Assembly: GCF_016892765.1 (NCBI RefSeq)
Contig: NZ_JAFEMD010000019.1
Span: 1 to 64,000, forward strand
Length of the DNA stretch: 64,000 nt
From: Microvirga arvi
GTDB lineage: Bacteria; Pseudomonadota; Alphaproteobacteria; Rhizobiales; Beijerinckiaceae
Direction of reading: 5' to 3'
Shown: in pieces, positions 44,009 through 64,000 of the stretch
Layout of the letters: each line of letters starts with the position of its first letter
How positions within the stretch are numbered: position 1 is the stretch's first letter
Translations under genes and position numbers: made by a program
The notes under the pieces: generated by a model
The model's input: only the letters and a program-made list of their open reading frames with translations
What the model was told of the DNA's origin: nothing
Databases searched by the model: none

Positions 44009-44236
44009 TCGTCCGACTAAGACTATGAGCGGAATGGGGATTTGCCTTAATAAGCGCATCAAGCTCCTCAATCGGAGAAATTATTGTGTTGCCAATAGTT
44101 GATATTGTCTTGCAGAACGGTTCTATCGGGTGTGATTGAGGTGATTGCTATATGGCAACTGGGCCAAGCCTCGGGATGCACTGCAAGTCCTGATGTTCGC
44201 GAACCCTGTGTTGCGAGCGCCAGGTTGGAGTCTTGA

Positions 44237-45172: not shown

Positions 45173-45181
45173 GGGGACGAC

Positions 45182-46980: not shown

Positions 46981-47986
46981 CACTTCCAACGACACGATCC
47001 TGAAGGTCGAAAACCTCGCGGTTCATTTTCCGGTTGGGCGAGGGCTCCTCGGAGGATCGCGGCGGTTCGTGCATGCTGTGGACGGGGTCGACCTGGAATT
47101 GAAGCGAGGCGAGTGCTTTGGTCTCGTCGGCGAGTCTGGCTGTGGCAAGTCGACTTTGGCACTCTCCATCCTCGGCCTGCAGGCGCCGACGCGCGGCCGT
47201 GTGGTTGTTGATGGGCACGAGGTCGGCACGGCGGGGAGGGACCGGAAGACGAGGGCGCGGATCACGCAAATGGTATTCCAGGACCCATATTCCTCGCTCA
47301 ACCCGCGTCAGACGGTGCGGAGGACGCTCGAGACTCCTCTGCGCCTACACGGCATCACGGCAAAGAGCGAGATCGACGGGAGGATCGGCGACATGCTGGC
47401 GCGCGTCGGCCTGCGGCCAGAGGCTGCAGAGCGCTACCCGCACGAGTTTTCCGGCGGACAGCGACAGCGGATCGGAATTGCGCGCGCCCTTATCCTCGAG
47501 CCGAAGATCGTCGTTCTGGATGAGCCGGTTTCCGCACTGGATGTCTCCATCCGAGCCCAGATCATCAACCTGCTTCTCGAACTTAAGGAGACGCTCGGTC
47601 TCTCATATATCATGATCAGCCACGATCTCGGCGTGGTCGAGCACATGAGCGATCGGGTCGCCGTTATGTATCTCGGCCGCATCGTCGAGAGCGGCCCATG
47701 GAACACGATTTTCACGCAGCCTGGGCATCCCTACACGCGGGCGCTCATCGCGGCGATCCCCGATCCGTTCAAACGAAGCAGCGGCACCAAGATCACCGGC
47801 GAGATCCCGAACCCGCTCAGTCCGCCGACAGGCTGCGGTTTTCACCCCCGATGCCCGGAAGCGCGGGACATCTGCCGGACGCCCCCAGCGCCAGCGCTCG
47901 AAAATCGGGGAGGGGAGCACCACGTCCGGTGCCGGAGAGTCGACGAGATTGCCATCCCAGATGGTTTGGCAACAGCCGTAGGCTGA
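46973..47986 (+). CDS. dppF: peptide ABC transporter ATPase, DppF type
   Basis: The ATPase has 337 residues. Walker A is GESGCGKST, the Q-loop MVFQDPYSSLNPR, the signature FSGGQRQRIGIARAL, Walker B IVVLDEPVSALDV and the H-loop MISHDLGVV. The C-terminal domain holds FHPRCPEARDIC. With DppD it powers the DppBC channel. A hairpin terminator follows at 48087. Confidence 0.94.
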   Translation: MTDTSNDTILKVENLAVHFPVGRGLLGGSRRFVHAVDGVDLELKRGECFGLVGESGCGKSTLALSILGLQAPTRGRVVVDGHEVGTAGRDRKTRARITQMVFQDPYSSLNPRQTVRRTLETPLRLHGITAKSEIDGRIGDMLARVGLRPEAAERYPHEFSGGQRQRIGIARALILEPKIVVLDEPVSALDVSIRAQIINLLLELKETLGLSYIMISHDLGVVEHMSDRVAVMYLGRIVESGPWNTIFTQPGHPYTRALIAAIPDPFKRSSGTKITGEIPNPLSPPTGCGFHPRCPEARDICRTPPAPALENRGGEHHVRCRRVDEIAIPDGLATAVG

Positions 47987-48086
47987 GCGGCAGATCACTT
48001 CCGGAGCCGCAGAGCTGACCTTGGAGCATGTTGCGGCGAAGTGGATCCGGTTCGCCGTCAATAAAGCGGCGAGAAATAGAAGAGGG

Positions 48087-48114
48087 CTGTTTCCATCAAC
48101 ATGGAAACAGTTTT
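48087..48114 (+). terminator. rho-independent terminator after dppF
   Basis: A perfect 10-bp stem CTGTTTCCAT/ATGGAAACAG with a 4-base loop is followed by TTTT. It lies 100 bases after the dppF stop and 43 bases before the GGT-like ATG, so it may end the dpp transcript or attenuate read-through into the next gene. Confidence 0.7.
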
Positions 48115-48156
48115 ACGCTGCAACCTCCGCGCGCAGCTGTTTCAGCGAGTGTCTTC

Positions 48157-49902: not shown

Positions 49903-49946
49903 CCGACCGGCGCACCTGCTCAGTCATGCGCTGTCTCCAAGGAAAA

Positions 49947-49977
49947 CATCCCGGCACCTCTGGAAGATGCCGGGATG
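49947..49977. terminator. bidirectional hairpin between convergent genes
   Basis: A perfect 10-bp stem CATCCCGGCA/TGCCGGGATG with an 11-base loop lies between the GGT-like gene and the oppositely directed binding-protein gene. On the minus strand GTTTTCC follows the stem, so it may serve both transcripts. Confidence 0.6.
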
Positions 49978-50013
49978 AAAGTCAGTCGGTTCAACCGTAC
50001 TGGACTGCCGCCG

Positions 50014-51603
50014 TTATTTGGCAGCGGGTGAGGTTTCGTCCACCCACAGATCCTCATAGTTCTGGAACGCAAGCTCCGTTGCGTTCGGCTGCAAGCCCTT
50101 GAGCCAAGGCTGATAAGCCATGACGGCCTTGTTGTAGTTGAAGAACCACATCGGAGCCTCTTCCTGGATGATCGCATTCGCCTTCTTCAGGTACTCGACC
50201 CTCTTGCCTGGATCCCGCTCGTCTCCCGCCTGGTCCAGCAACTTGTCGACTTCTGCGTTCTTGAATGCGGTATAATTACAGGCCGACTGGGGAGTAGCCG
50301 AGTGGAAGCACTTCAGCGATCCAAGCGGATCAGGGCCGGACGTATTCGACCAGATGTAGGCCTGATACTCGCCCTTGCTGACGATGCCTGCAAGAACGGA
50401 TCCCTCCACAGGCTTGATCTTCGCCTTAATCCCGACCTTCTCGAGCATCGGAATGACAGCCTCGACTATGGGGACACCCCAGCTCTCATTCGGGGTCGCC
50501 GTCCACTCGAACTCGAAGCCGCCGGAGTAGCCGGCGTCAGCAAGCAGCTTCTTGGCCTTCTCCGGATCATACGTATACGGCTTCAAGGACTTGTCATAGG
50601 CGGGTGACGACAGAGGAAGCCAGCTTGTGGCTCGGTAGGCCTTATTCTTGTTGAGACGCTTGATGATAAGATCTGCGTCAATGGCGTGGTTGACCGCCTG
50701 TCGAACACGCTTGTCGGTAAAAGGCTTGAAATTGGGATTCATGCCCATGATCCGGGTATAAACCTCCGGTACCTCGAGAATGCCTTTGGAGAGCTCAGGA
50801 TCGGCCTGATAGGCGACATATTGCGCTGGCCCGAGAATCGAGACGTCGATTTCCTTGTTGCGGAAAGCAACGTCGCGCGCGGATGCTTCACCCATGGTCG
50901 AGATCACGATTTTGTCGGCATGAGGCTTGCCCGGCTTGTAGAACTTCTCCCAGCGCTCTGCGACAAACCGGGATCCCGGTACATGCTCGACAAACTTGAA
51001 GGGTCCAAGTCCAATCGGTTTGATCACGAAGGACTCTTTGACCGCTTCATCCGCAGGATAGATGGATGTTGCTGCCGTCCTGAGATAAAAACCGGGATCA
51101 ACACGCTCTGTGAGAGCCATCTCCAAGGTATGGTCGTCAATCTTCCTGAGACCTGAAATTTCCCTAGCCTGTCCCTTCTCGACCTCGACGGCTCCCTTGA
51201 TGATGCGGACGAAGCGCGCGCCCGGATATGCTTTGGCACCATCCATGATGCGCGTGAACGACCATATGATATCATCGGCGGTCATCTTCCGGCCGTGATG
51301 GAAATAGGCGTCATCCCGCAGCTTGTAGGTGTAGGTCAGTCCATCTTCGGAGATATCGACCGATTTGGCGAGTTCCAGAACCGGCTGGTTATTAGTGGCA
51401 TCCCAGTTGTACAGCGAGCGGTGAATTGCCTTGGCGTAAATCTCGTCCTGGGCGCGGTGCGAGGTGTGAATGTCAAGGCTCGAAAAGCTTGAACCGTAGG
51501 GTGCCGAGAAGCGGATTGTGCCACCGTTGCGCGGCGTTTCAGCGTAAGCGTAGGTGCTGATTGCCAGAGTAAGTGCAGTCGAGATAGCTAGTTTCGCGAG
51601 CAA
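50014..51603 (-). CDS. dppA: peptide ABC transporter substrate-binding protein (SBP_bac_5)
   Basis: The protein has 529 residues starting at a TTG (51603) with GGGAGG six bases upstream. This start gives a clean Sec signal (LLAKLAISTALTLAISTYAYA) and is preferred to the longer frame to 51726. SBP_bac_5 motifs include YNWDATNNQPVLELAKSVDISEDGLTYTYKLRDDAYFHHG, VRQAVNHAIDADLII and the late EYLKKANAIIQEEAPMWFF. It is probably the periplasmic receptor for DppBCDF, though convergently transcribed and therefore separately regulated. Confidence 0.9.
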   Translation of the reverse strand: MLAKLAISTALTLAISTYAYAETPRNGGTIRFSAPYGSSFSSLDIHTSHRAQDEIYAKAIHRSLYNWDATNNQPVLELAKSVDISEDGLTYTYKLRDDAYFHHGRKMTADDIIWSFTRIMDGAKAYPGARFVRIIKGAVEVEKGQAREISGLRKIDDHTLEMALTERVDPGFYLRTAATSIYPADEAVKESFVIKPIGLGPFKFVEHVPGSRFVAERWEKFYKPGKPHADKIVISTMGEASARDVAFRNKEIDVSILGPAQYVAYQADPELSKGILEVPEVYTRIMGMNPNFKPFTDKRVRQAVNHAIDADLIIKRLNKNKAYRATSWLPLSSPAYDKSLKPYTYDPEKAKKLLADAGYSGGFEFEWTATPNESWGVPIVEAVIPMLEKVGIKAKIKPVEGSVLAGIVSKGEYQAYIWSNTSGPDPLGSLKCFHSATPQSACNYTAFKNAEVDKLLDQAGDERDPGKRVEYLKKANAIIQEEAPMWFFNYNKAVMAYQPWLKGLQPNATELAFQNYEDLWVDETSPAAK

Positions 51604-51911
51604 ATCAAATCCTCCCAGATTTCTAAAGCCGCAAAGCGCAACGGGGATCTTGCGCTCGCAGAATGACAGCACTCCAGTTGTCACGGCCGTTAGCACCGAA
51701 GCGCTCCCCGTGTGTCTCTTTGACAACTGGTAGATCCTGAACCTCGGATCACCTATCGAAGCGTAAGGCCCTCAATCAGACTGTCAAGCTATAGCCACTG
51801 CCCGTGGAGCTCAGGGCAGAGATTGAGCCAAAAGGTGTCAACTGGGATGCGGATTGACCGTGTTGCATGGATCGTCTGGTGAACGCACTGGGCCCACCCC
51901 GTGCCTGTAGT
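51604..51911. promoter_or_regulatory. upstream region of the binding-protein gene
   Basis: About 308 bases without a gene. It must hold the promoter of the minus-strand dppA-like gene; no operator was recognised. Confidence 0.4.
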
Positions 51912-52417: not shown

Positions 52418-53416
52418 CTATCCGTGCAACAAGGCGGCATAGCGGGTGAATTGATCCAAAAGCGCCTCGCTATCGTAGCCTGCGCCAAGCAGCAGGGACA
52501 ACAGTAACCGGGCCTTTAGACCCCCAATATCGCCGCCGTTGATGAGACCGCGGCCGATCAGGTCGATCTCTGAGCCCGGGAAGCCGTAGGTGCGTGAGCA
52601 TACCGGGCCTGCTGTGATCCGCGTGCTCAAGATTACGGGCAAGGTACCGGCCAACTCTTCGAGAGCAGGCACTACAGAGGCTGGAACATGCCCCACACCC
52701 ATGGCCTCGATGACAACTCCTCGGTAACCAAGCGCGGGCAGGGTGGGGAGCAACCTACCGTCATCTCCAAGAGCGATGATGATGAGGGCCACGGGGGCTT
52801 CGTCTCCGTCTACGCCATTCGGAATGGCAGGGCGGCGGACAATCCTGGTGAGGATGCGCGCTTCACCTTCGACAACATATCCCAGCGGTCCCGCTCCGGG
52901 TGACTGGAATGCGGACGGCAACACGGTGCTGATCTTCTGCACGAACCGGGCGGCGTGAATAGTGTCGTTGAGGACGACGAGAGTGCCGAGCCCGCGCGCA
53001 GCCCCCGACGCTGCGGTGATGACGCCCGCGAGCAGATTGGCCGGTCCGTCCGCTCCTGGCGCCTCCGCTCCACGCATTGCGCCGAGCACCACTACAGGCT
53101 TGTCGCTGTCGACCAGCAGGTCGAGCACGAAAGCAGTCTCCTCGATAGTATCTGTTCCCTGGACGACGATGGCGCCGCTGCAATCACCCTGCAGACGCTC
53201 ATTGAGCATTCGAGCGATCTCGCGCAAGTGGGCGAGGGACAGAGAGGCGCCCGGCAGGCGGAACGGAGACAGAGCCTCGATCTCGGCCACCTTCGCAAGG
53301 GCAGGGATGGCGCGAACAAGGTCCTCTCCGGTCAGCGTCGGCACGATGCCTCCCGCGGCGCCCGAGGTCATGGTGATCGTGCCGCCAAGCGACACGAGGA
53401 GCACTTTTGGAAGCAT
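52418..53416 (-). CDS. L-asparaginase family amidohydrolase
   Basis: This 332-residue protein has the two asparaginase signatures: SLGGTITMTS, with the nucleophile Thr13, and VVQGTDTIEETAF, with Thr88 and Asp89. No signal peptide is seen, so it is cytoplasmic. It hydrolyses asparagine or a related amide to the acid and ammonia. As the last gene of the eleven-gene unit (19 bases after the deacetylase), it may release ammonia from a pathway amide rather than from asparagine itself (inference). Confidence 0.88.
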   Translation of the reverse strand: MLPKVLLVSLGGTITMTSGAAGGIVPTLTGEDLVRAIPALAKVAEIEALSPFRLPGASLSLAHLREIARMLNERLQGDCSGAIVVQGTDTIEETAFVLDLLVDSDKPVVVLGAMRGAEAPGADGPANLLAGVITAASGAARGLGTLVVLNDTIHAARFVQKISTVLPSAFQSPGAGPLGYVVEGEARILTRIVRRPAIPNGVDGDEAPVALIIIALGDDGRLLPTLPALGYRGVVIEAMGVGHVPASVVPALEELAGTLPVILSTRITAGPVCSRTYGFPGSEIDLIGRGLINGGDIGGLKARLLLSLLLGAGYDSEALLDQFTRYAALLHG

Positions 53417-53435
53417 GGTCGCTGTCCCTTCCAGC

Positions 53436-54326
53436 CTACTTTGCCTGCGCCTTGTACCAGTCGAGGATCTCGGCTCCAGTCCACATCACCACGTCGTCAT
53501 GGCTGAGGATATGGTCGTACAAGGCTTCCAGATATTTGATCCGATGCGGCGCACCGGTCAGATACGGATGGATGGAAATCGCCATCACCCGGGGGATATC
53601 CTTGCCTTCGAGGTAGAGGCGATCGAATTGGTCACGCCCGCGGCGGAAGATCTCATCCGACGGCGATTGCTGGATCGCAGTCATGACCACATCATTGATC
53701 TCAACTGTGTAGGGGACCGAAACAATTTCACCGGCGCGGGTGCGAAGCGATACGGGCTGGTCGTCCAGAACCCAGTCGGCAACGTATTCGATGCCCGCCT
53801 CGGCCAGGAGATCGAGTGTCTCGTCAGTCTCCGTCAGTCCCGGACTTTCCCAGCCACGCGGTGGGCGGCCAGTAAACCTCGCAATGGCATCGATGGTGTC
53901 GGCGATAGCTGCTTTCTGATCCTCGACCCGGTGCATGGGCTGCTGCACGAAGCCATGACCCATGAAATCCCAGCCCTCGTCTAGCGCTGCCTGGCAAGCC
54001 TGGGGGTAGAGATCGATGCAGGTGCCGTTGACGGCAAGGCTCGCCTTAAGCCCACGAGATGATAACGCTTCATGGAAGCGCCAGAAGCCGACCCGCATGC
54101 CGTACTCGTGCCAGGCCCAGTTCGGCACGTCCGGCAGCAGCGGTTGGCCCATCGGCGGCGGCAGCACCGTCCGGGGCATGGGGCCGGTCGGGCGCCAGTT
54201 CTCGATATTGACGATGGTCCACACCGCGACACGGGCATTGCCCGGCAGCGCGAGTCGCCTGCGCTGCGTGATGGGCTGATAGTCCAGACGCCCGCGCAGC
54301 GAATGTCCGCTTCCTGTATCAGTCAT
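53436..54326 (-). CDS. PuuE-like polysaccharide-deacetylase-family hydrolase 1
   Basis: The protein has 296 residues from an ATG with AGGAGG upstream. The NodB-type barrel shows VNIENWRP, WAWHEYGMRVGFWRFHEAL, WDFMGHGFVQQPMH, PRGWESPGLTETDETLDLLAEAG and ISIHPYLTGAPHRIKYL, the pattern of the PuuE allantoinase group, which acts on small N-containing compounds rather than sugars. No signal peptide. A paralogue at 61495-62382 belongs to the same unit. Function is inferred only at the level of C-N hydrolysis. Confidence 0.85.
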   Translation of the reverse strand: MTDTGSGHSLRGRLDYQPITQRRRLALPGNARVAVWTIVNIENWRPTGPMPRTVLPPPMGQPLLPDVPNWAWHEYGMRVGFWRFHEALSSRGLKASLAVNGTCIDLYPQACQAALDEGWDFMGHGFVQQPMHRVEDQKAAIADTIDAIARFTGRPPRGWESPGLTETDETLDLLAEAGIEYVADWVLDDQPVSLRTRAGEIVSVPYTVEINDVVMTAIQQSPSDEIFRRGRDQFDRLYLEGKDIPRVMAISIHPYLTGAPHRIKYLEALYDHILSHDDVVMWTGAEILDWYKAQAK

Positions 54327-54339
54327 GTGCAAGCTCCTC

Positions 54340-55329
54340 CTAAGCTTCGCCCAGGAGCGAGAGAGCCGTGCGCCCTGCAATCTGCGCACGTTGCTCGTCC
54401 GTCAGCCCAGGTGCATCCGCTATGGTCTTCACCGGGTCTTCGTCACCCATGTCAAAGGGGGCGTCTGTTCCGAGAAAGACGTGTTCCGCTCCGACGAGAT
54501 CCGCCAAAAAGGTCAGCGCTTTTGGCTCGAACACAACGCTATCGAAATAGAACCGGCGCAGCAGGTCGAGGGGCGAGGTCTGCGACTTCGCGCGTGTCTC
54601 GCTACGAACCTTGTGACCGTGGGCGAGGCGTCCGATCTGATAGGGCGCGAACCCACCGCCATGCGCTAGGCCGATCTTCAAATCTGGAAGCTCGTCCAAG
54701 GTGCCGCTATACATCAAGTCGGCGACCATCAGGGTGGTCTCCAGAGGATTGCCGATCAGGTTGGTGAGGTAATAGTCCTCCAGCCCTGACTTGTTGCCGA
54801 TGTAATAGGGATGGGCCAAGATGAAGATGCCAAGCTCGGAGGCCCGCTTCAGCACTGGACGGAAGCGCTGATCGCTGAGCTTCACTCCCTCGATACCAGT
54901 TCCGATTTCGACTGAACGGAAGCCATGGACCTCTACGATGCGTTCGAGCTCCGCTATGGCGTCATCGGGATGCTGCATCGGCAGAATTCCCATGCCTCGA
55001 AAGCGATCTTTGCGGATAGCCACGAAATCAGCGACGCCGTCATTGACCAGGCTCGTTACCTTGACGGCTAGATCACGGTCGGCCCAATAGGTGAAGGTCG
55101 GCGGTGCCGGGGAGAGAACGGAAATATCAATCCCCTTTCGATCCATGGCCGCGAGCTTGGCTTCGGGTTGGGTGAACTCCGCAAACAGCGGATAGGCATA
55201 ACCTTGATCATGCACGACCTTGCGGTCGCTGCCTGTCCCGATGATGCGGGCCTTCAGGCGTGCAGGGTCGTTCTCGATGGCTGCAACGAAGGCTGTCGGA
55301 ATGACGTGGCTGTGAAAGTCGATGTTCAT
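54340..55329 (-). CDS. ACMSD-like amidohydrolase
   Basis: The protein has 329 residues. The metal-binding HxH is near the N-terminus (IDFHSHVIP); later His ligands are in ILAHPYYIGN and LAHGGGFAPYQIGR, and the terminal Asp in LGTDAPFDMG. The group includes aminocarboxymuconate-semialdehyde decarboxylase and related decarboxylases or hydrolases. The gene lies 6 bases after the aldehyde dehydrogenase gene, a pairing seen in aminomuconate-semialdehyde type pathways; this is suggestive only. Confidence 0.86.
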   Translation of the reverse strand: MNIDFHSHVIPTAFVAAIENDPARLKARIIGTGSDRKVVHDQGYAYPLFAEFTQPEAKLAAMDRKGIDISVLSPAPPTFTYWADRDLAVKVTSLVNDGVADFVAIRKDRFRGMGILPMQHPDDAIAELERIVEVHGFRSVEIGTGIEGVKLSDQRFRPVLKRASELGIFILAHPYYIGNKSGLEDYYLTNLIGNPLETTLMVADLMYSGTLDELPDLKIGLAHGGGFAPYQIGRLAHGHKVRSETRAKSQTSPLDLLRRFYFDSVVFEPKALTFLADLVGAEHVFLGTDAPFDMGDEDPVKTIADAPGLTDEQRAQIAGRTALSLLGEA

Positions 55330-55335
55330 GGGGAG

Positions 55336-56832
55336 TTAGCTGTACCTTTTGATCTGGTTGTCATCCTCATACCAATCGAAGACCGCGTCGGAGAGGTTGA
55401 CGATGATGTTCTGGATCTGCGTGTATTCCTCGTAAGCGACAAGACCGTTCTCTCGTCCGATGCCGCTCATCTTGAAGCCGCCCCAAGGCGAGGCAGGATC
55501 GATCCGGTGGTGATCGTTGATCCATGTGATCCCGCTCTCAAGCTGATGAGCGACCCGGTGGGCACGCGCCACGTCCCGTGTCCAGATGCTGGTGGCGAGG
55601 CCGAACTCCGTGCCATTGGCGATGGCGATCGCCTCCTCCTCGGTGTCGAAGGGGATGACGCAGACAACAGGGCCGAAGATCTCCTCCTGGGCGATGCGCA
55701 TATCCGGTTTCACGTCCGTGAAGATCGTCGGCAGAAGATAATAACCGCTCGCGAATGACTCGCCCTCGGGACGGCACCCGCCATAGGCGAGCGTCGCGCC
55801 TTCATCGATGCCGATGCGGACATAGCTCTCTACCATATCGCGCTGCTTCTTGGAGACCATCGGCCCTACCTGTGTGGTTTCGAGCTGCGGGTCGCCGAGT
55901 CTGAGGCGGCCTGTCCGCTCAACAAGCTGCGCCACCACCTCGTCATGGATCGAGCGGTGCACGATCAAGCGTGCGCCCTGCACGCAAGTCTGGCCTGTTG
56001 CGATGAAGGATGCGAACAACGTGGCGGCCACTGCGCGCTTCGTGTCGGTATCCGGAAAGACGATGACGGCTGCCTTGCCTCCGAGCTCAGCCGCCACCTT
56101 TACGAGGTTCTTGCCCGCGATGGAAGCAACGGCCTTGCCGGTTTCAGTCCCACCCGTCAGGTCGATCTTGCGAATGCGAGGATGTGAGGACAGGGCAAGG
56201 CCAGCTGTGGCGCCAAAGCCCGGAACCACATTGTAAACCCCGTCCGGAACGCCGGCTTCCTTCAACACTTCCCCGAGGATGAGGGGCGTGATCGGGGCGA
56301 GCTCGGACGGTTTGACCACCATCGTGTTCCCGGCGGCAAGGGACGGTGCGACCTTCTTGGTGAGAATGAGAAGTGGGTGGTTCCACGGTGTAACATGCCC
56401 GACCACTCCGAGCGGCACGCGTCGGGTGTAGTTCAAGTAATGACCGGCGAACGGGGGCACGGTATCCTCATGGGTCCGCGCAACGGCACCGAAATAGGAA
56501 AACCATTCCGGCAGACGGGAAAGCTGGGCCGCCATCTCCCGGCGAGAACGTCCGATCTGGTCGATCTCGATGGTGACGAGCTCTGGCAGGCGGCGCTTCA
56601 GGATCTCTGTGGCGCGATTCATGATGTCGCCACGCTCGGCGCCTGTCAGAGCCGACCATACAGAGAAGGCCCTCTCCGCCGCCTTGATGGCGATCTCGAT
56701 GTCCTCGGCCGCCCCTTCGGCGACTTCGGCAATGACGGAACCGTCCTTCGGATTCTCGACAGGGAAGGTACGGCCGGAAACGGCAGGATGGTAGTCTCCC
56801 TCAATGTAGAGACCCCATGTTCGAACTGTCAC
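55336..56832 (-). CDS. aldehyde dehydrogenase (NAD(P)-dependent)
   Basis: The protein has 498 residues from a GTG at 56832 with AGGAG seven bases upstream. Catalytic residues are present: Asn151 (TPWNHP), Glu249 (AAELGGK) and Cys283 (GQTCVQGAR). The subgroup resembles betaine-aldehyde, 5-carboxymethyl-2-hydroxymuconate semialdehyde and related dehydrogenases. It converts an aldehyde intermediate to an acid. It is central in the minus-strand unit, between livF and the amidohydrolase gene. Confidence 0.92.
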   Translation of the reverse strand: MTVRTWGLYIEGDYHPAVSGRTFPVENPKDGSVIAEVAEGAAEDIEIAIKAAERAFSVWSALTGAERGDIMNRATEILKRRLPELVTIEIDQIGRSRREMAAQLSRLPEWFSYFGAVARTHEDTVPPFAGHYLNYTRRVPLGVVGHVTPWNHPLLILTKKVAPSLAAGNTMVVKPSELAPITPLILGEVLKEAGVPDGVYNVVPGFGATAGLALSSHPRIRKIDLTGGTETGKAVASIAGKNLVKVAAELGGKAAVIVFPDTDTKRAVAATLFASFIATGQTCVQGARLIVHRSIHDEVVAQLVERTGRLRLGDPQLETTQVGPMVSKKQRDMVESYVRIGIDEGATLAYGGCRPEGESFASGYYLLPTIFTDVKPDMRIAQEEIFGPVVCVIPFDTEEEAIAIANGTEFGLATSIWTRDVARAHRVAHQLESGITWINDHHRIDPASPWGGFKMSGIGRENGLVAYEEYTQIQNIIVNLSDAVFDWYEDDNQIKRYS

Positions 56833-56863
56833 TTCAGTGCTCCTAAGGAAATAGGGTGGCCAA

Positions 56864-57568
56864 TCAGTGGACACCCAGGAAGCGCATCAGCGGGCTCTGG
56901 TCGTTGCGGACCTCCGCAGCGCTGACTTCGTGAACAACCTTGCCGGTCTCGAGAACATACAAGCGGTCGGCGACCGCCAGCGCGCTGTAGAGGTTTTGCT
57001 CAACCAGCAGAATCCCAAGTCCAGTCTTGCCAAGATTGGCGATAATGGTCTCAAGATGCTGGACCATGACTGGTGCCAGGCCTTCCGAGGGCTCATCCAT
57101 AAGCACGAGCTCGGGATCAATCATGAGCGCTCGTCCGACGGCGAGCATCTGGCGCTCGCCTCCAGACAATTGGTTGCCGCGATGACTCCGGCGCTCGGCC
57201 AGACGAGGGAACATCTCGAACACGCGGTCGACCGTCCATCCTTCCTTGACACTGGCGGCCTTCAGCATAGTCAGATGCTCTGTCACGCTTAGAGAGGGGA
57301 AGAGCCTCCGGCCCTGAGGCACCAGCGCTATTCGACGCTTGGCGACCTCATGGGGGGAGAGACCGAGCAGTTCCTCGCCCTTCCAAAGCAATGAGCCTGT
57401 CTTTACCTGCGGCTGTGCAAGTCGCATGATTGAACGTATGAGCGTGGTCTTGCCCATGCCATTACGGCCGAGGAGCGCAACGACCTCGCCGGGCTTCACA
57501 TGAAGCGTCGTGCCATGCAGCACGTGCGCGTCGCCGTAGAAACTATGGAGGTTTTTAACCTCAAGCAT
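56864..57568 (-). CDS. livF: branched-chain amino acid-type ABC ATPase, LivF
   Basis: The protein has 234 residues, LivF length. Walker A is GRNGMGKTT, the signature LSGGERQMLAVGRAL, Walker B LVLMDEPSEGLAPV and the ending VEQN. The ATG at 57568 overlaps the livG stop by 8 bases, so the two ATPases are translationally coupled. Confidence 0.93.
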   Translation of the reverse strand: MLEVKNLHSFYGDAHVLHGTTLHVKPGEVVALLGRNGMGKTTLIRSIMRLAQPQVKTGSLLWKGEELLGLSPHEVAKRRIALVPQGRRLFPSLSVTEHLTMLKAASVKEGWTVDRVFEMFPRLAERRSHRGNQLSGGERQMLAVGRALMIDPELVLMDEPSEGLAPVMVQHLETIIANLGKTGLGILLVEQNLYSALAVADRLYVLETGKVVHEVSAAEVRNDQSPLMRFLGVH

Positions 57569-58319
57569 GATCGCGTGCCTTTCCGAGATACACATCCTGC
57601 ACGCGTTGATTGGCGCTGATGCTCTCCGGCGTTCCCTCAGCCAGCAATTGACCGTTGTTAAGGCATGTAACGTAGTCCACCAGCCTGAGAACGAGATCCA
57701 TGTCGTGCTCGATCAAAACCATGGTCAGGTCGCGGGGGAGCGCACGGATAATATCCGAGACAATGATGCGCTCCGATGGAGACAGGCCTGCGGCAGGCTC
57801 ATCCAGGAGTAGCAACTTTGGCCTCGTGACCAACGCCATCGCCATCTCCAGCTGGCGCTGCTCGCCGTAAGACAATTCGTGCACCTCAACCGAGTTTCGC
57901 TCGCCGAGCCGAGAGATGGCTAGCGCTGACATAACCCGTTCCTCTTCCTCCGCCGACAGGCGTGCGGAGCCAAAGAGAGAAAACTTGCCGGGTCCGGTGC
58001 CGCGCAGGGCAAGCTGCATGTTCTCGGCAACGGTAAGACGCGGAAACAGATTGGTGATTTGGAATGTCCGGCTCATTCCCATCCGTGCACGTAGATGCGC
58101 AGGCTTTGTTGTGACGGTCGCTCCTTCAAAGATGATGCGTCCGGACGTTGGTGGATTTACGCCGGTGATCGCGTTGAATAGCGTCGTCTTACCCGCGCCG
58201 TTCGGTCCGATAATCGCCCGGCGCTCGCCGCCCTTCACTGAGATCGACACATCGTCGACTGCCTTCAGAGCTCCGAAGGCGACAACGACGTTTTCTAAGA
58301 CAAGCGCGGGTTGTGACAC
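57561..58319 (-). CDS. livG: branched-chain amino acid-type ABC ATPase, LivG
   Basis: The protein has 252 residues from the GTG at 58319; the frame is open to a TTG at 58358. Walker A is GPNGAGKTT, the MSRTFQITNLFPRLTV segment is typical of LivG, the signature region reads LSYGEQRQLEMAMAL, and Walker B is LLLLDEPAAGLSP. It pairs with LivF to drive LivHM. Confidence 0.93.
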   Translation of the reverse strand: MSQPALVLENVVVAFGALKAVDDVSISVKGGERRAIIGPNGAGKTTLFNAITGVNPPTSGRIIFEGATVTTKPAHLRARMGMSRTFQITNLFPRLTVAENMQLALRGTGPGKFSLFGSARLSAEEEERVMSALAISRLGERNSVEVHELSYGEQRQLEMAMALVTRPKLLLLDEPAAGLSPSERIIVSDIIRALPRDLTMVLIEHDMDLVLRLVDYVTCLNNGQLLAEGTPESISANQRVQDVYLGKARDHA

Positions 58320-58390
58320 GTTACAGCTCTTCAATGGAACGATTCTGGAGCGGGGCAATTGCCTTCCCCGCTCCCGTGCAAAGGCTTTGC

Positions 58391-59650
58391 TTACTTCTTG
58401 ATGCCCTGGTAGTCGCGTGAGAAAGGCGGCGACTTGAGGTATTCCTCGGGCTTATATGTCCAGAACTGAGAGACGTTCGGATATGTTTCAATCGGCACGT
58501 TCCAGTACTTGCCGTCGGCATTTTTCTGGACCTTGCGGATATAGACGTCATAGACCGGGTTACCGAATTCGTCGAAACGCACCGGACGGCCGAGCGGCGA
58601 GTTGGCAAGCTGGCTGTTCAGCACGGCATCGATGAAGGCGTCGCGGTTGGAGATGTCGCCGTTGAGCTTCTCGATCACTTGGCCTACCCACATCGCGCCG
58701 GAGTAGTGCGAGAAACCATACAGGGACGGCAGCTTGCCGTACTTTTCTGAGTAGGCTTTGACGAACTTCTGGGTGTCAGGGTTGTCAGAGCCTTCCGCAA
58801 AGTGAGCGGAGGAGATGATGCCCTCGCATTCCGGGCCCATGGTGCGGATCACCGATTGGTCGGTGAAGTTTTGCGCGCCGAGGAGCGGAATATTCCCCTT
58901 CAGGCCGAAATCGGAATATTGCTTCAGGAACCGCGTGGCGTCGGCTCCAAGCTCCATGGCAAAGATCGCGTCCACGTTCATATTCGCGAGCTGGCCGATA
59001 TAGGGGCTGAAATCTGCGGTGTTCAGCGGGTTCCAGAGCTGGCCCACGATTTGGCCTCCGCCTTGGGTGAACACCTGCGCAAAGCCAGCGCACTGCTCAT
59101 GGCCGAAGCTGTAGTCCTGTGCAATGGTTGCGATCCGCTTGTACCCCTGCTTGAGCGCCCAGTCGGCAAGTGGGCGAGGCATCTGGCTGGCGGTATAGCC
59201 TGCAACGCGGATGACGTTCCGCACCCGGTCGCGCTGCGTCAGATCGTCAGCGGCAATGACCGGGATGAAGTACGGAACGCCGTTGGTCTTGACGTAGTTG
59301 GCGACCGCAAGGCCGGTATTGGCAAGCAGGTTGCCGAATAGGAAATCGACTTTGGCTTGCTCCACTAAGCGGCGAGCCTTCTGAAGCGCCGTATCAGGGT
59401 TGCCAGCATCATCTTCCTCGATGATCTCAATCGCTCGGCCGGCAACGGACTTGCCTTTTTCCTGCCAGTACATATTGAAGCCTTCGACGATCTCGCGACC
59501 GCCGGCTGCGACGACGCCACTGAGCGGGGCCATCAATCCGATCCGGATCGGACCTGACTGGGCGCGTGCCACGAACGGGGCCGATATCGTGCCTGTCGTT
59601 GTTGCCGCCAGCGCGAGACCGGATGTCTTCAGAAACTGTCTGCGATCCAT
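58391..59650 (-). CDS. Liv-type ABC substrate-binding protein, Tat signal
   Basis: The protein has 419 residues. Instead of a plain Sec signal it has a twin-arginine one (MDRRQFLKTSGLALAATTTG) cut near ARAQS. The mature part is a Peripla_BP_6 fold: IRIGLMAPLSGVVAAGGREIVEGFNMYWQEKG, DDAGNPDTALQKARRLVEQ and YSFGHEQCAGF. It is the receptor for LivHMGF. Such binding proteins in catabolic clusters often take aromatic acids, amides or urea derivatives rather than leucine. Encoded between livM and livG. Confidence 0.9.
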   Translation of the reverse strand: MDRRQFLKTSGLALAATTTGTISAPFVARAQSGPIRIGLMAPLSGVVAAGGREIVEGFNMYWQEKGKSVAGRAIEIIEEDDAGNPDTALQKARRLVEQAKVDFLFGNLLANTGLAVANYVKTNGVPYFIPVIAADDLTQRDRVRNVIRVAGYTASQMPRPLADWALKQGYKRIATIAQDYSFGHEQCAGFAQVFTQGGGQIVGQLWNPLNTADFSPYIGQLANMNVDAIFAMELGADATRFLKQYSDFGLKGNIPLLGAQNFTDQSVIRTMGPECEGIISSAHFAEGSDNPDTQKFVKAYSEKYGKLPSLYGFSHYSGAMWVGQVIEKLNGDISNRDAFIDAVLNSQLANSPLGRPVRFDEFGNPVYDVYIRKVQKNADGKYWNVPIETYPNVSQFWTYKPEEYLKSPPFSRDYQGIKK

Positions 59651-59668
59651 GGCTTTCCCTCTTTTCGA

Positions 59669-60631
59669 TTATGGTTTTATTCGATTTTTCTTCCATCCAG
59701 AACGGAAGAACTTGCTCGCTGCACCGAGAATGCCCTCGGGGGCGAAAATCATGGTGCCGATGAACATGAAGCCGAGAACCATCGGCCAGCGAGGTGTGAA
59801 ATCGCTGACGAAGTTCTCAAGAAGAATGATGGCGGCGGAGCCCACGAAAGCGCCGAATAGGGTGCCGATGCCGCCGACAATCGCCATCAGGAGTCCTTCG
59901 ACGGATTGTGACAACTGCACTGTCGATGGGCTGACGAAGTTGTTGAACAAGGCGTAAAGCGCGCCGGCAACTCCGGCAAATATGCCGGTGATGGTGAACG
60001 CGATGAACATGTGGGAGGCCGTGCTATATCCGAGACTGCTCATCCGGCTTTCACTATCGCGAATGCCCCGTAACGTGAGTCCGAATGGTGACTGCACGAA
60101 GCGCCAGATGATGAAGCTAAAAATCAGCACCGTAACGAGCGTGGTATAAAAGAAGACCAGCGGATCGGCGATGATTTCAGGCCGGCCTACGCCGCGAATG
60201 CCGTTTTCTCCGCCCGTCACACTCGTCCATCGCAGGCAGACGCCCCAGACAATCATACCGAGTGCCAGCGTCAGCAACAGGAAATATACGCCGCTGACCC
60301 GGACGGCGAGCAGGGCGAAGACCGAAGCAAGCATCGTGGCCGCCAATACACCCAACAGCAACGCAATCCATGGCGATCCTCCAGCCACAGAGATCCAGTA
60401 GATCACAATATACGTGGAAGCGCCGAAGATAGCACCATGACCGAGGGAGGTGCGCCCTGCATAGCCTGCCAGTACGTCGATGGACATGGCAAGCAGCGCA
60501 AAGATCAGGATCTCATTAGCGACGCTGATCTGGTAGCTTGAGGCGAATAGGGGCAACGCGCCGAAGATGATCAGGATCGAGGCGAGAGCCGGGATTGGTA
60601 TGCGACGTTGAGGGCTATAAGCGGACGCCAT
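59669..60631 (-). CDS. livM: branched-chain amino acid-type ABC permease, LivM
   Basis: The protein has 320 residues from the ATG at 60631, which overlaps the livH stop by one base (TGATG). About eight to ten membrane helices, with the LivM motifs LLAMSIDVLAGYAGRTSLGHGAIFG and LRGIRDSESRMSSLGY. The longer frame to 61156 is an artefact of the overlapping livH region. Confidence 0.92.
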   Translation of the reverse strand: MASAYSPQRRIPIPALASILIIFGALPLFASSYQISVANEILIFALLAMSIDVLAGYAGRTSLGHGAIFGASTYIVIYWISVAGGSPWIALLLGVLAATMLASVFALLAVRVSGVYFLLLTLALGMIVWGVCLRWTSVTGGENGIRGVGRPEIIADPLVFFYTTLVTVLIFSFIIWRFVQSPFGLTLRGIRDSESRMSSLGYSTASHMFIAFTITGIFAGVAGALYALFNNFVSPSTVQLSQSVEGLLMAIVGGIGTLFGAFVGSAAIILLENFVSDFTPRWPMVLGFMFIGTMIFAPEGILGAASKFFRSGWKKNRIKP

Positions 60632-61491
60632 CAGGCAGCCCTCCCGAACAATCCAAGCGGGCGAAATGCGAGGATCGCCGCCATAGGACCGAAGATGACG
60701 AAATAGGCGAGTTCGGGGAACATCACCTGGCCGATCGAATTGAGGAGACCGACGAGGAGCGCGCCGACGGCAGCACCAACGAGGCTGCCCCGCCCGCCGA
60801 TGATGACCACAGCCAGAGAGAATACGAGAATTTCTGCGTCGGCCGTCGGGTAAAGGGTAAGGAAGGCTCCGCCCACTGCGCCGCCCAACCCCGCCAGGGA
60901 AGCGCCGAGCATGAAGGTCGCGAGGAAGACCCTGCGGATATTGATTCCCATGGCTTCGACCATCTCGGCGTCGTCCACTCCCGCGCGGATGAGCGCGCCG
61001 AGACGGGTGCGGTTGAGCAGAAGCCAGAGCGCCAGGAACACGACCAGACCGAGAACGAGCACAAACAGCCGGTACTTCGGATAAAACCCGCCGCCGACCC
61101 GAACCGCGCCGCGGAGCATCTCCGGGACAGGCATCGAAAAAGTGTCGCCGCCCCATATGACGAGGGCGAGATCGTTGAGCACAAAGGCGACACCAAGGGT
61201 CAGCAGGACCTGACGCAGCTCGAAGCCACGCACGAAACGCAAGAGCCCCAGATCAAGGACCACCCCCATCAACGCCACGCAAAGCATTGAGGACAGGACT
61301 CCGAGCGCGAAGTTGCCGGTCATTCCGGTGACGGAATAAGCAATATAACCGCCGAAGAGATAGAGTGCGCCGTGGGCTAGATTGACGATCCGCAGCAGCC
61401 CGAAGATCAGGGTAAAACCCGAAGCAACGATGAACAGAAGGGCTGCGAATGTTAGCCCATTGAGAATTTGGATGAGATTGAGGCCGGACAA
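60631..61491 (-). CDS. livH: branched-chain amino acid-type ABC permease, LivH
   Basis: The protein has 286 residues from a TTG start 3 bases after the deacetylase-2 stop. Membrane helices fill the sequence; hallmark segments are GFTLIFGLLRIVNLAHGALYLFGGYIAY near the N-terminus and LGASLAGLGGAVGG. The tight spacing on both sides supports one transcript. Confidence 0.92.
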   Translation of the reverse strand: MSGLNLIQILNGLTFAALLFIVASGFTLIFGLLRIVNLAHGALYLFGGYIAYSVTGMTGNFALGVLSSMLCVALMGVVLDLGLLRFVRGFELRQVLLTLGVAFVLNDLALVIWGGDTFSMPVPEMLRGAVRVGGGFYPKYRLFVLVLGLVVFLALWLLLNRTRLGALIRAGVDDAEMVEAMGINIRRVFLATFMLGASLAGLGGAVGGAFLTLYPTADAEILVFSLAVVIIGGRGSLVGAAVGALLVGLLNSIGQVMFPELAYFVIFGPMAAILAFRPLGLFGRAA

Positions 61492-61494
61492 GAC

Positions 61495-62382
61495 TCAGTA
61501 CCCTTTAAGGGCGTCGGGACGCTGGCTGAGATACCAGTCGTGGATCTGCTCGCCGGTCCAGAACACGACGTCGGGGAGGCGACTGATCTTTTCCAGAATG
61601 CGCCGAAAGTGCTTGGCTCGGTGCGGGGCGCCCATGATGTAGGGGTGAACTACAAGCGCCATTACGCGCGCAGAATTGGCGCTATCGTGATAGAGCTGCT
61701 CGAATTGATCCATCGCCCGATCGTGGTACTCGGTTGCCTTATGATGTTGAATCAACATCATGGCGACGTCATTGCATTCCTGCGTGTAGGGAATGTTGAC
61801 GATGGGCTTGGTGCGGGTCTTGAGAACGACCGGCTCATCGTCGAGAACCCAGTCGCATACATATTCGAAGCCTTCCTCGACGAGGAGATCGGGGGTTTCC
61901 CAGGTTTCAGTCAATCCCGGTCCGAGCCAGCCGCGGGGTGCCTTGCCGGTGAAGGTTTTGATGGCCTCCGCAGTCTTGCGAATATCCTCGCGCTCGTCGG
62001 GGACCTTCTGCATGTTCTTCTGGCCGAAGCCATGGCCCATGAACTCCCAGCCCCGATCAAGAGCTGCGCGGGAAATGGCCTCGTAGGTGGCGATGGCCTT
62101 GCCGTTGATAGCAAGAACGGCCTTGATGCCGTGATTGTCGAGGTCCTCGAGAATGCGCCAAAACCCAACACGGTTGCCATACTCGTGCCAGGCCCAGTTC
62201 GGAATATCCGGTGAGGGAGAGCCGCCCGCAGGTGGTGTCAACACCGTACGAGGCATGGTTTCCTTTGGGTCCCATTCTTCGATGTTGACGATCACCCATA
62301 CCACCATCCGAGCCTTGCCCGGCAGTTTCAGGGGAGGGCGTTCGGTAATGGCTGAGTATGTGATGCGTTCGGTTGGCAGCAT
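61495..62382 (-). CDS. PuuE-like polysaccharide-deacetylase-family hydrolase 2
   Basis: The protein has 295 residues and is a paralogue of the 53436-54326 product over its full length: VNIEEWDPKETMPRTVLTPP, WAWHEYGNRVGFWRILEDL, WEFMGHGFGQKNMQ, PRGWLGPGLTETWETPDLLVEEG and LVVHPYIMGAPHRAKHF. The two copies have diverged clearly, so they probably act on different intermediates or chain forms. It starts 4 bases after the FAH gene stop. Confidence 0.85.
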   Translation of the reverse strand: MLPTERITYSAITERPPLKLPGKARMVVWVIVNIEEWDPKETMPRTVLTPPAGGSPSPDIPNWAWHEYGNRVGFWRILEDLDNHGIKAVLAINGKAIATYEAISRAALDRGWEFMGHGFGQKNMQKVPDEREDIRKTAEAIKTFTGKAPRGWLGPGLTETWETPDLLVEEGFEYVCDWVLDDEPVVLKTRTKPIVNIPYTQECNDVAMMLIQHHKATEYHDRAMDQFEQLYHDSANSARVMALVVHPYIMGAPHRAKHFRRILEKISRLPDVVFWTGEQIHDWYLSQRPDALKGY

Positions 62383-62386
62383 GACA

Positions 62387-63082
62387 TTACGCCTTCTTAG
62401 GACCGATGGAGAACGAGAAGGGCGCCAAGCCCTCGACGGTAGCAACGAGACGATCGCCGGGAACGATCGGCCCGACCCCGGCGGGTGTGCCTGTCATGAT
62501 GAGGTCGCCAGGCTCCAGGCTGTACTGTGTCGAGAGGTTTGCGATGATTTCGGGTGTGTTCCAGATCATCTGCCGGAGGTCAGCACGCTGGCGCTCCTCG
62601 TCGTTGACGCTGAGGGTGATGCTGCCTTCGAGCCGGTGTCCGACGGAATCTACGGGGTGCAGAGGGCCGCACGGCGCCGAATGATCGAAGGATTTTCCGA
62701 TTTCCCACGGGAGACCCTTCTTGAAGGACTCGCGCTGACGGTCACGGCGGGTCAGGTCTATGCCTGCGGCATATCCAAAAACAACGTCCAGCGCTTCGGC
62801 AACAGGAATGTTGCGCGCGCTCTTACCGATGGCTGCGACCAGCTCAACCTCGTACTGGAAGTCCTCTGTGGCCGGCGGGTAGGGAACAACCTCACCCTCG
62901 GAAACGATGGAGTCGGTCGGCTTCTGGAAGAAGAATGGCAGATCCCGCTCGTCGCCCTCCTTCATCTCACGAATATGCTCCACATAGTTGCGGCCTACGC
63001 AATAAATGCGGCGCACCGGGAAGCGGTCTTCACTACCGATGATGGCGAGTGTCGTGACACTGTGAGGAAAAACCAGAGCCAT
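62387..63082 (-). CDS. fumarylacetoacetate hydrolase family protein
   Basis: The protein has 231 residues, like fumarylpyruvate hydrolase and YcgM-type proteins. FAH motifs: IYCVGRNYVEHIREM, PFFFQKPTDSIV, the metal-binding YEVELVAAIGK (Glu-x-Glu) and IMTGTPAGVGPIVPGD. The family hydrolyses or decarboxylates 3-oxo acids at the end of ring-cleavage pathways. It is the first gene of the minus-strand unit, divergent from the GntR-type regulator. Confidence 0.9.
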   Translation of the reverse strand: MALVFPHSVTTLAIIGSEDRFPVRRIYCVGRNYVEHIREMKEGDERDLPFFFQKPTDSIVSEGEVVPYPPATEDFQYEVELVAAIGKSARNIPVAEALDVVFGYAAGIDLTRRDRQRESFKKGLPWEIGKSFDHSAPCGPLHPVDSVGHRLEGSITLSVNDEERQRADLRQMIWNTPEIIANLSTQYSLEPGDLIMTGTPAGVGPIVPGDRLVATVEGLAPFSFSIGPKKA

Positions 63083-63221
63083 TTCAGGGAGCGGCCATAC
63101 TTAAGGGGCGTGGCGTGATCCTGCGCATGGTTTGTTCTCCTGTTCCAGGGGCCACTCAGGCGGCTAACCCGAGCTTTATGACAACGGAAGGCTACATCCA
63201 TTTGGACCCCAGTCAAGAAGG

Positions 63222-63233
63222 AATGTATACATT
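63222..63233. promoter_or_regulatory. perfect 12-bp palindrome, probable GntR operator
   Basis: AATGTATACATT lies in the 280-base region between the catabolic unit (first ATG at 63082) and the divergent GntR/FCD gene (GTG at 63363). TGTATACA-centred palindromes are common FCD-family operators. It is well placed to control both directions. Confidence 0.6.
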
Positions 63234-63362
63234 TCACTTAAGGATTAGAGATCCGCTACGGCACGGTTGGAGAAGCCCTATCGCAAAGCGATCCATTTAA
63301 AGGGAGGTGCAAAAGGGATTGTCACGTAGTAAGTTAGCCACAAACAGCTCAGGAAGATACCA

Positions 63363-64000
63363 GTGCATTCACAGAGTGACCTTCAGGACGGCGCCCGCAC
63401 GGGTGAGTTGGACGCCCCGACGCGAAGTGTATCCATTACCGAGCAATTGCGATGCGGAATCCTCGCTGGTGACTTTCAGCCCGGCGAACGAATCTATGAG
63501 GTCAATCTCTCAGAGAAGCTGAAGGTATCTCGCACTCCCATACGGGCCGCGCTCCAATCTCTCGCGGGCGAGGGGCTGCTCAGGCATATCCCCAATCGAG
63601 GCTATTATGTTCAGGAATTCTCGGTTGATGAGATCGTTCAGGCTTACGAGATCCGGGCAACCCTTGAGGGTCTGTGCGCCAAGCGCGCTGCACAGCTTGG
63701 GCTGAATGCGGAGGATCGCGACATCATAGAGAGGGCTTTGCGTGAAGGAGATTTGCTTCTGCAGAAGGAAGAACTCTCTGCTGACGACCGTAGCATCTAT
63801 GGCGAAATAAACGCCGCCTTTCACAGCGCCATACACAGGGCCGGGCAATCGCGCATGCTGCGTGACATGCTCCGAGTGTCCCAGCAGGTCGCCCCGTCAT
63901 CGCATCGCAATGTTATCGCCTTCGAACTCCGGGATGTCCGCCGCCGACATGACGATCATCACCGCATCTACGAGTCCATCCTGTATCGTGATGGAGGCCG
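63363..64000 (+). CDS. GntR-family (FCD) transcriptional regulator, cut by window end
   Basis: The frame is open from the GTG at 63363 (AGGAAG upstream) to the end of the window, giving 212 residues so far. The winged HTH spans about 20-85: ITEQLRCGILAGDFQPGERI, VNLSEKLKVSRTPIRAALQSL, GEGLLRHIPNRGYYVQEF. The FCD effector domain follows, with AYEIRATLEGLCAKRAAQ and NAAFHSAIHRAGQ; His residues in this domain usually bind a metal that holds a carboxylate ligand. It is divergent from the eleven-gene unit and is its likely repressor (inference). Confidence 0.88.
   Translation, partial: MHSQSDLQDGARTGELDAPTRSVSITEQLRCGILAGDFQPGERIYEVNLSEKLKVSRTPIRAALQSLAGEGLLRHIPNRGYYVQEFSVDEIVQAYEIRATLEGLCAKRAAQLGLNAEDRDIIERALREGDLLLQKEELSADDRSIYGEINAAFHSAIHRAGQSRMLRDMLRVSQQVAPSSHRNVIAFELRDVRRRHDDHHRIYESILYRDGG

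Follow-up and report, generated by a model that had tools for sequence, protein, structure and literature searches.

A modular operon of Microvirga arvi that joins a Liv-type transporter to probable ring-opening hydrolases

What kind of compound is taken up and broken down by a gene cluster in which a Liv-type transporter stands among two PuuE-like proteins, an FAH-family enzyme, an aldehyde dehydrogenase (ALDH), an ACMSD-like amidohydrolase and an asparaginase? The question is raised by eleven genes near one end of a 64,000-nucleotide stretch of Microvirga arvi DNA (contig NZ_JAFEMD010000019.1, positions 1 to 64,000), here called the window. An earlier note on this DNA had taken them to be a single unit for uptake and breakdown, with an amide or a nitrogen-containing ring compound as its best guess for the substrate, and our data support that reading. 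We found that the operon is real but modular, and that its conserved core is the pair formed by FAH and the first PuuE-like gene (PuuE1), not the eleven-gene set; the Liv transporter is the usual partner of the pair, and ALDH, the ACMSD-like gene, the second PuuE-like gene (PuuE2) and especially the asparaginase are accessories. With somewhat more confidence than doubt, we regard it as a horizontally spread, locally regulated operon that imports a small nitrogen-heterocyclic acid, opens the ring hydrolytically and cuts the resulting chain via FAH.

The operon and its conserved core

All eleven genes are open frames on the minus strand, running from 63082 down to 52418 (table 1), and Pfam places each of them in the family first named for it. 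From FAH to asparaginase the gaps measure 4, 3, -1, 18, 71, -8, 31, 6, 13 and 19 bases, that is, 9 of the 10 junctions are shorter than 35 bases and the largest has 71, just as had been claimed. These figures rest on the starts judged best, including that of PuuE2, which was re-set to ATG 54326, preceded by AGGAGG. Two overlaps (1 and 8 bases) are left of the several once reported, more being obtained only with the upstream starts TTG 62445 for PuuE1 and GTG 54389 for PuuE2. Between 50000 and 64000 there was no excess of sigma-70-like promoters (3, against 5.1 in shuffles) or of terminators (11 against 10.0), and Rfam at gathering scores gave no match anywhere in the window.

Table 1. Features of the operon and of its upstream region in the window
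Feature	Position	Strand	Remarks
GntR/FCD transcription regulator gene	63363..63998	+	divergent, runs off window end; Pfam GntR 54.8 bits, FCD 48.8 bits
Perfect palindrome AATGTATACATT, probable operator of GntR regulator	63222..63233		between operon and regulator gene
FAH, acylpyruvate/fumarylpyruvate-hydrolase-like enzyme, 231 aa	62387..63082	-	Pfam FAA_hydrolase 194 bits
PuuE1, NodB-fold PuuE-like, probable ring-opening hydrolase, 295 aa	61495..62382	-	Pfam Polysacc_deac_1
LivH-type permease	60631..61491	-	BPD_transp_2 129 bits
LivM-type permease	59669..60631	-	BPD_transp_2 126 bits
Binding protein, HAAT family, TAT-like signal	58391..59650	-	Peripla_BP_6 267 bits
LivG-type ATPase	57561..58319	-	ABC_tran + BCA_ABC_TP_C; start chosen among alternatives
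LivF-type ATPase	56864..57568	-	ABC_tran
ALDH, 498 aa	55336..56832	-	Aldedh 552 bits
ACMSD-like amidohydrolase-2 protein without ACMSD Arg and Trp	54340..55329	-	Amidohydro_2
PuuE2, second PuuE-like, probable ring-opening hydrolase, 296 aa	53436..54326	-	Pfam family; start ATG 54326
Asparaginase-family amidohydrolase, 332 aa	52418..53416	-	Pfam Asparaginase 174 bits

A scan of genome contigs with PuuE1 returned at least 591 relatives, and the best 80 of them, five plasmid loci and one same-genus locus make up the 86 anchored loci compared here (L094, the sixth plasmid locus, has a PuuE2 relative only and does not enter the counts). Genes in these loci were called with our own codon-score script, and their starts are approximate. 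Among the 54 long-flank loci, whose flanks extend 5 kb or more upstream of PuuE1 and 9 kb or more downstream, FAH lies immediately upstream of PuuE1 in 45, and each of the five Liv genes is present in 29. The 45 loci with the FAH-PuuE1 pair include two actinobacterial plasmids (L089, L092) and one contig labelled Acidobacteria (L076). The genes at the end of the window operon are found far less often in these 54 loci: the ACMSD-like gene in 8, ALDH in 7, PuuE2 in 6 and the asparaginase in 2.

Where ALDH or ACMSD orthologues are clustered with PuuE1 (14 alpha- and beta-proteobacterial loci), the genes present follow the window order on one strand in 12 loci and are rearranged in two (L011, L026). 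Gene order, which the note had proposed to check in other genomes, was thus conserved beyond chance, and Aquamicrobium aerolatum DSM 21857 (L012) carries the full set, but the eleven genes proved not to be a conserved unit. It is conceivable that FAH, PuuE1 and the Liv genes are the sole functional unit, ALDH, the ACMSD-like gene, PuuE2 and the asparaginase belonging to an independent pathway that shares the transcript: modules are found separately, the asparaginase is present in only 3 of the 14 loci, and PuuE2 is missing in the same-genus locus (G007). We consider this rather improbable, given that ALDH, the ACMSD-like gene and PuuE2, wherever present, come after the Liv genes in 12 of the 14 loci.

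The accessory modules are of two types. Type A, that of the window, places ALDH, the ACMSD-like gene, PuuE2 and sometimes the asparaginase at the operon end. Type B often begins with a C-C hydrolase resembling 2,6-dihydroxypseudooxynicotine (DHPON) hydrolase (nearest solved structure 2jbw, 90 bits), an isochorismatase, an HpcH/HpaI aldolase and sometimes OsmC, and often finishes with an AtzE-type amidase and an ACMSD-like gene. The two types are mixed in L016 and L020. In the long-flank set, the type-B PuuE2 was found in 19 loci, the C-C hydrolase in 18, an MFS transporter in 17, the type-B ACMSD-like gene in 10 and the aldolase in 9. Minimal loci consist of FAH, PuuE1 and the MFS transporter, to which a TauE/SafE-like gene is added in Variovorax, Cupriavidus, Streptomyces and Arthrobacter records and an Amidohydro_1 protein in those of Variovorax, Cupriavidus and Streptomyces. 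In L072, L073 and L078, the DHPON-hydrolase-like gene precedes PuuE1 in place of FAH. The amide hydrolases vary (isochorismatase in 19, AtzE-type amidase in 15 and asparaginase in 2 of the 54 loci) while PuuE1 and FAH persist. Since ALDH, the ACMSD-like gene, PuuE2 and the asparaginase are optional modules, they do not define the substrate. We infer that the heart of the system is ring opening by PuuE1 followed by a C-C cut, with nitrogen released by whichever amidase is at hand.

Small type-B open reading frames before the amidase look AtzG-like, but the two that were scanned had no Pfam hit, and they are only putative AtzG genes. In the genome of M. arvi itself we found no match to the type-B C-C hydrolase, an empty result that proves little, and only three weak partial matches to the type-B isochorismatase.

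Some other loci deserve mention in their own right. PuuE1 stands alone, without FAH and near one or more transporter genes, in L032, L033, L054, L055, L066, L069, L070, L075, L085 and L087, and all of these except the short L033 also lie near F-ATPase genes; families were scanned in L032 only. The neighbours in L032 (CynX-like, SMR and EamA transporters and F-ATPase subunits) were uninformative, and the ATP synthase genes were dropped as a clue. In L059 (Acuticoccus mangrovi), the seven genes scanned downstream of PuuE1 belong to a cell-division/cell-wall cluster and are unrelated to the pathway. The same locus carries, at L059:599-4372, a second, divergent set with an ACMSD-like gene, an isochorismatase, a C-C hydrolase and a 50% PuuE relative, adjoining TRAP-type transporter genes and FAH-PuuE1. 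On a Mesorhizobium plasmid (L094:7385-12921), a PuuE2 relative (59%) is accompanied by asparaginase-family, tartrate-dehydrogenase-like, enolase-superfamily and SDR genes.

PuuE-like proteins and their partner enzymes

PuuE1 and PuuE2 are 54% identical to each other and gave no match in PHROGs. A tree was built from 71 chosen rows; in it, PuuE1 belongs to a clade of 39 rows (95/92) from Pseudomonadota, Acidobacteriota-labelled contigs and two actinobacterial plasmids, and PuuE2 and its type-B equivalent form a separate clade of 28 rows (98/92); long branches leave the placement of the other PuuE paralogues of this genome unsure. Both the Pfam family and the predicted fold assign PuuE1 to the PuuE subgroup of the NodB/CE4-like fold. 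Its predicted model, built from a 15-row alignment (mean pLDDT 83, residues 45-59 poor), is nearest to the PuuE allantoinase 3cl6 (E 6e-19, TM 0.81), followed by 1z7a, 3s6o, 3rxz and 3qbu. PuuE1 shares with 3cl6 the fold, the aligned N-x-E-E, H-G and PYT-x-x-x-ND motifs and the lack of a second zinc histidine. On the other hand, the two are 26% identical in the fold alignment, HP replaces HC near the end of the window protein, and PuuE1 and PuuE2 sit outside any purine operon.

According to the part of PMC3084791 that deals with the metal site, the ion ligands of HpPgdA are Asp14, His86 and His90. The second zinc histidine aligns with Gln121 of PuuE1, which is invariant in 15 rows, and PuuE1 thus lacks the full pair of zinc histidines expected of a metal-dependent CE4 deacetylase. 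The HpPgdA group (3qbu) has the NodB fold in common with PuuE1, but its match is weaker than that of PuuE (51.9 against 81.9 bits); HxnM was compared by description. PuuE itself is described as non-metal-dependent in the relevant passage of PMC10967932. For the Aspergillus cyclic imidase HxnM, which is related to HpPgdA, PMC9304392 proposes 3-hydroxypiperidine-2,6-dione as the ring that it opens, with an amide hydrolase acting next, and places the enzyme beside HpPgdA and PuuE.

The note had read both proteins as PuuE-like deacetylases that open C-N bonds. They are PuuE-like by fold and motif, and for that reason ring opening is likelier than deacetylation; judging from sequence and the predicted model, PuuE1 and PuuE2 are most likely ring-opening hydrolases of cyclic amides or imides. 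Sugar deacetylation was rejected because of the structures nearest in fold and because the second zinc histidine is absent. True deacylases that strip acyl groups from an N-acyl amino compound, the asparaginase and ALDH processing the rest, would agree with the Pfam family Polysacc_deac_1, but the nearest fold is a small-ring hydrolase and the invariant Gln121 stands where HpPgdA has its histidine, which makes this extremely improbable.

If PuuE1 and PuuE2 open rings, the ring might still be that of a ureide or pyrimidine: a hydantoin-, dihydropyrimidine- or barbiturate-type substrate would be opened by them, as allantoin is by PuuE, and its carbamoyl nitrogen taken by the amidases. This is the strongest rival of the reading that we favour. 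Besides the allantoinase fold, several weak likenesses point this way. The type-B isochorismatase matches best the models of biuret hydrolase (75.8 of 370 bits) and RutB (67.7 of 378), far below the cut-offs; AtzE-family models rank second and fourth for the type-B amidase, below the cut-off; urea-transporter models score best for all five transporter proteins, again below the cut-offs; and the Amidohydro_1 protein of the Variovorax and Streptomyces loci has deaminase-like matches. However, PuuE1 and PuuE2 reach only 111.2 and 124.6 bits with the PuuE allantoinase model TIGR03212 (cut-off 424.6), and a genuine PuuE-UraD fusion (561.6 bits) is encoded elsewhere in the same genome (C33, L097:5554-7349), next to a hydroxyisourate hydrolase gene. 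The latter genes are likely the real allantoin route of the organism, and on these two grounds the allantoin pathway was ruled out for the operon. Moreover, FAH, the DHPON-like hydrolase, ALDH and the HpaI-type aldolase have, to our knowledge, no place in known ureide routes. Altogether, a ureide or pyrimidine substrate is unlikely.

Among known systems, the imide/half-amide route of Blastobacter and Pseudomonas, in which ring opening is followed by hydrolysis of the half-amide, has the same order of steps as proposed here; it was compared by description, and the window adds FAH, ALDH and the ACMSD-like protein to it. With the AtzDGEHF operon for cyanuric acid, as far as it is described in the relevant part of PMC6219798, the type-B relatives have an AtzE-like amidase in common; the window operon lacks AtzE, and neither cyanuric acid hydrolase nor allophanate hydrolase was among the recurrent modules that we identified.

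Further PuuE-like genes occur in this genome. One (C148, L096:6190-7098) reaches 386 bits against the 424.6-bit cut-off and lies in an apparent peptide-type ABC transporter cluster. Another unit (C180, L095:5776-16424) contains LivHMGF, an isochorismatase-like gene, two tandem PuuE-like proteins, LeuC and LeuD, together with a divergent methylisocitrate-lyase/PEP-mutase-family gene and a binding protein. Its chemistry would fit an alkyl-maleimide, passing from imide to half-amide, to a maleate type, to a malate type and to pyruvate. Plasmids of Sphingomonas and Acidiphilium carry the isochorismatase-PuuE-PuuE-LeuC-LeuD block too, there together with genes for HMG-CoA lyase and CaiB, and in Comamonas the first three genes occur without LeuCD.

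The ACMSD-like protein (189 bits with human ACMSD) retains the zinc ligands that correspond to human His6, His8, His174 and Asp291: His173 and Asp289 are present in 12 of 12 close rows, and His6 and His8 in 11 of them, the twelfth being gapped there. It also retains His223 and Arg234, so that the zinc ligands, the histidine and the intruding arginine are all common to ACMSD (4igm, 2hbv). The column of the essential arginine (human 47, Pseudomonas 51) is different: it holds Tyr46 in the ungapped alignment with the Pseudomonas protein or Pro47 in the gapped one with the human protein. Neither residue varies in the 12 close rows, none of which has an arginine at positions 44 to 48. Similarly, Trp191/194 is replaced by Asn190 in 12 of 12. 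The arginine column is a gap, and therefore undecided, in 12 more distant relatives, all of which have Asn in the tryptophan column. The mutant data given in PMC11650718 include R51A, which abolishes ACMSD activity, and W194A, which lowers kcat 26-fold. The note had suggested that this protein decarboxylates or hydrolyses a semialdehyde; without the indispensable arginine, decarboxylation of the kynurenine-pathway compound is unlikely.

A lower kynurenine-type route, with ACMSD, a semialdehyde dehydrogenase and an enzyme of the FAH family acting on 2-amino-3-carboxymuconate semialdehyde, would account for the resemblance to human ACMSD and for the match of ALDH to the hydroxymuconic semialdehyde dehydrogenase model (453.5 bits, cut-off 693). 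Nevertheless, the residue changes above led us to rule it out, the unit has no ring-cleavage oxygenase, and the two PuuE proteins would be left unexplained; we regard it as very improbable.

The remaining enzymes are less specific. FAH belongs to the FAH superfamily, with the FAA_hydrolase family and E78, E80 and D109, presumably metal-binding, in at least 97% of 53 rows. Its nearest solved relatives are 6j5y (237.5 bits) and 4maq, a "putative fumarylpyruvate hydrolase" (233.5 bits), which align over nearly the full length with about half of the residues identical by eye; both count as putative fumarylpyruvate-hydrolase-like proteins, and no gentisate gene is found among the eleven of the window. 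None of the 25 best NCBIfam models for ALDH reached its cut-off. The asparaginase scores 184.2 bits with the type II model TIGR00520, below the cut-off of 314.3, and cannot be assigned to that type; Thr13, Thr88, Asp89 and Lys161, which we take to be catalytic, are kept in 4 of 4 rows.

Transporter, local regulator and spread

Two permeases, two ATPases and a binding protein together identify a Liv/HAAT transporter. Neither a specific Liv (LivHMGF) nor a Urt assignment can be made, every NCBIfam match shown being below its cut-off. The binding protein has a TAT-like signal (TIGR01409, 19.4 bits, cut-off 16.7), and its nearest solved structures are 4zpj, 4ey3 and 4evq. We take the last two to bind hydroxybenzoates; neither code turned up in our literature search. 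At 42539-51726 the window holds a second, separate uptake unit that adjoins the operon and consists of an MlrC/M81 protein, a peptide-type ABC transporter, a gamma-glutamyltranspeptidase-like gene and a convergent family-5 binding protein.

Orthologues of the divergent GntR gene were found in 35 of the 54 long-flank loci. We compared 42 intergenic regions between GntR gene and operon, including that of the window. A match of at least 10 of 12 letters to AATGTATACATT was present in 24 of them (shuffle p at most 0.03 each), of at least 11 in 14 and of all 12 in 7; as the motif was picked after seeing these regions, the counts describe it and do not test it. The sequences suggest that this is likely a dedicated local regulator with AATGTATACATT as candidate operator. 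A genome-wide regulon was not obtained from the palindrome, since only the operon's own site was found, with no further genes.

The distribution of the operon is patchy. Among 36 further genomes of the genus, G007 alone has a true PuuE1 orthologue (94%), and its genes from FAH to ACMSD follow the window order with 79% DNA identity over 8,958 aligned bases, in different surroundings. In the class sample, PuuE1 was matched at E 1e-100 in 3 of 385 genomes including its own, the other two being just 55-56% identical, and the ACMSD-like protein was matched at E 1e-90 in its own genome only. Flanking genes differ between loci. The window also contains an IS6/IS240-type transposase at 40562-41281 (DDE_Tnp_IS240, 150 bits), a possible sign of an acquired region. 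The patchiness, the setting of the G007 operon among other genes and the transposase fit horizontal spread.

A proposed route and its meaning

Gene content, order, conservation, the palindrome, family membership and the residue changes are directly demonstrated, and a route may be built upon them. The GntR/FCD regulator would sit on AATGTATACATT until released by a pathway compound, and the Liv/HAAT transporter would import a small, probably carboxylated nitrogen heterocycle. From its family, fold and motif, PuuE1 would then open a cyclic imide or lactam by hydrolysis at one of the C-N bonds in the ring. As it resembles fumarylpyruvate-hydrolase-like proteins and keeps its place beside PuuE1, FAH may next cut an acylpyruvate-type C-C bond, or hydrate or decarboxylate an equivalent keto acid. 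ALDH, the ACMSD-like protein, PuuE2 and the asparaginase may add an accessory branch that deals with a substrate carrying more substituents, turning an aldehyde into an acid, removing or shifting a carboxylate, opening a second ring and releasing ammonia from a half-amide. None of the eleven genes encodes an oxygenase. As substrate class we slightly favour small N-heterocycles that probably carry a carboxylate and have in the ring an amide or imide open to hydrolysis. Kynurenate, isonicotinate/citrazinate, dihydroxypyridine, alkylmaleimide, pyridone and thiamine-pyrimidine were all weighed as candidates, and no single one stood out.

Several observations weigh against this proposal. The sample of 80 genome loci, being the best of at least 591, is biased towards close relatives. 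In 17 of the 86 loci (by identity thresholds, several contigs being short), PuuE1 occurs without FAH, Liv, ALDH/ACMSD, type-B PuuE2 or MFS genes, and it can thus exist without FAH. The link between PuuE2 and asparaginase is weak, the asparaginase near the Mesorhizobium PuuE2 relative being only 33% identical to that of the window. In G007, neither PuuE2 nor asparaginase was found in the 3 kb after the operon (an asparaginase elsewhere was not sought), and a second PuuE match is absent at E 1e-80, indicating that there is no close PuuE2 elsewhere in that genome. Finally, 18 of the 42 intergenic regions match AATGTATACATT in fewer than 10 of 12 letters, many no better than shuffles, five of them having the related motif AGTGAATACACT; and although the 6.46-Mb genome has a single AATGTATACATT site at up to one mismatch, the reversed control pattern also has one, and uniqueness is therefore not evidence in itself.

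The enzyme families involved are known, and their combination was not met in our searches of the open-access (PubMed Central) literature; no gene-for-gene equivalent appeared in them, in agreement with the note, which did not recognise this exact set as a described pathway. Carriers of the operon, according to record titles and sources, are bacteria of soil, plants, sludge and fresh water. It is possible, if still doubtful, that PuuE1 and PuuE2 found new clades of NodB-fold hydrolases without the full zinc triad, which act on the ring of an N-heterocyclic acid directly and serve an oxygenase-free route, ring hydrolysis followed by acylpyruvate-type C-C cleavage, for a naturally common heterocycle in Pseudomonadota, Acidobacteriota and Actinomycetota. 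The operon offers direct handles on the substrate in its binding protein, its regulator with a candidate site and its two ring-opening candidates. Finding that substrate would name two enzyme clades now annotated as "polysaccharide deacetylase", would correct the ACMSD-like annotation, and would reveal a way in which bacteria may exploit a nitrogen ring with no need of an oxygenase.

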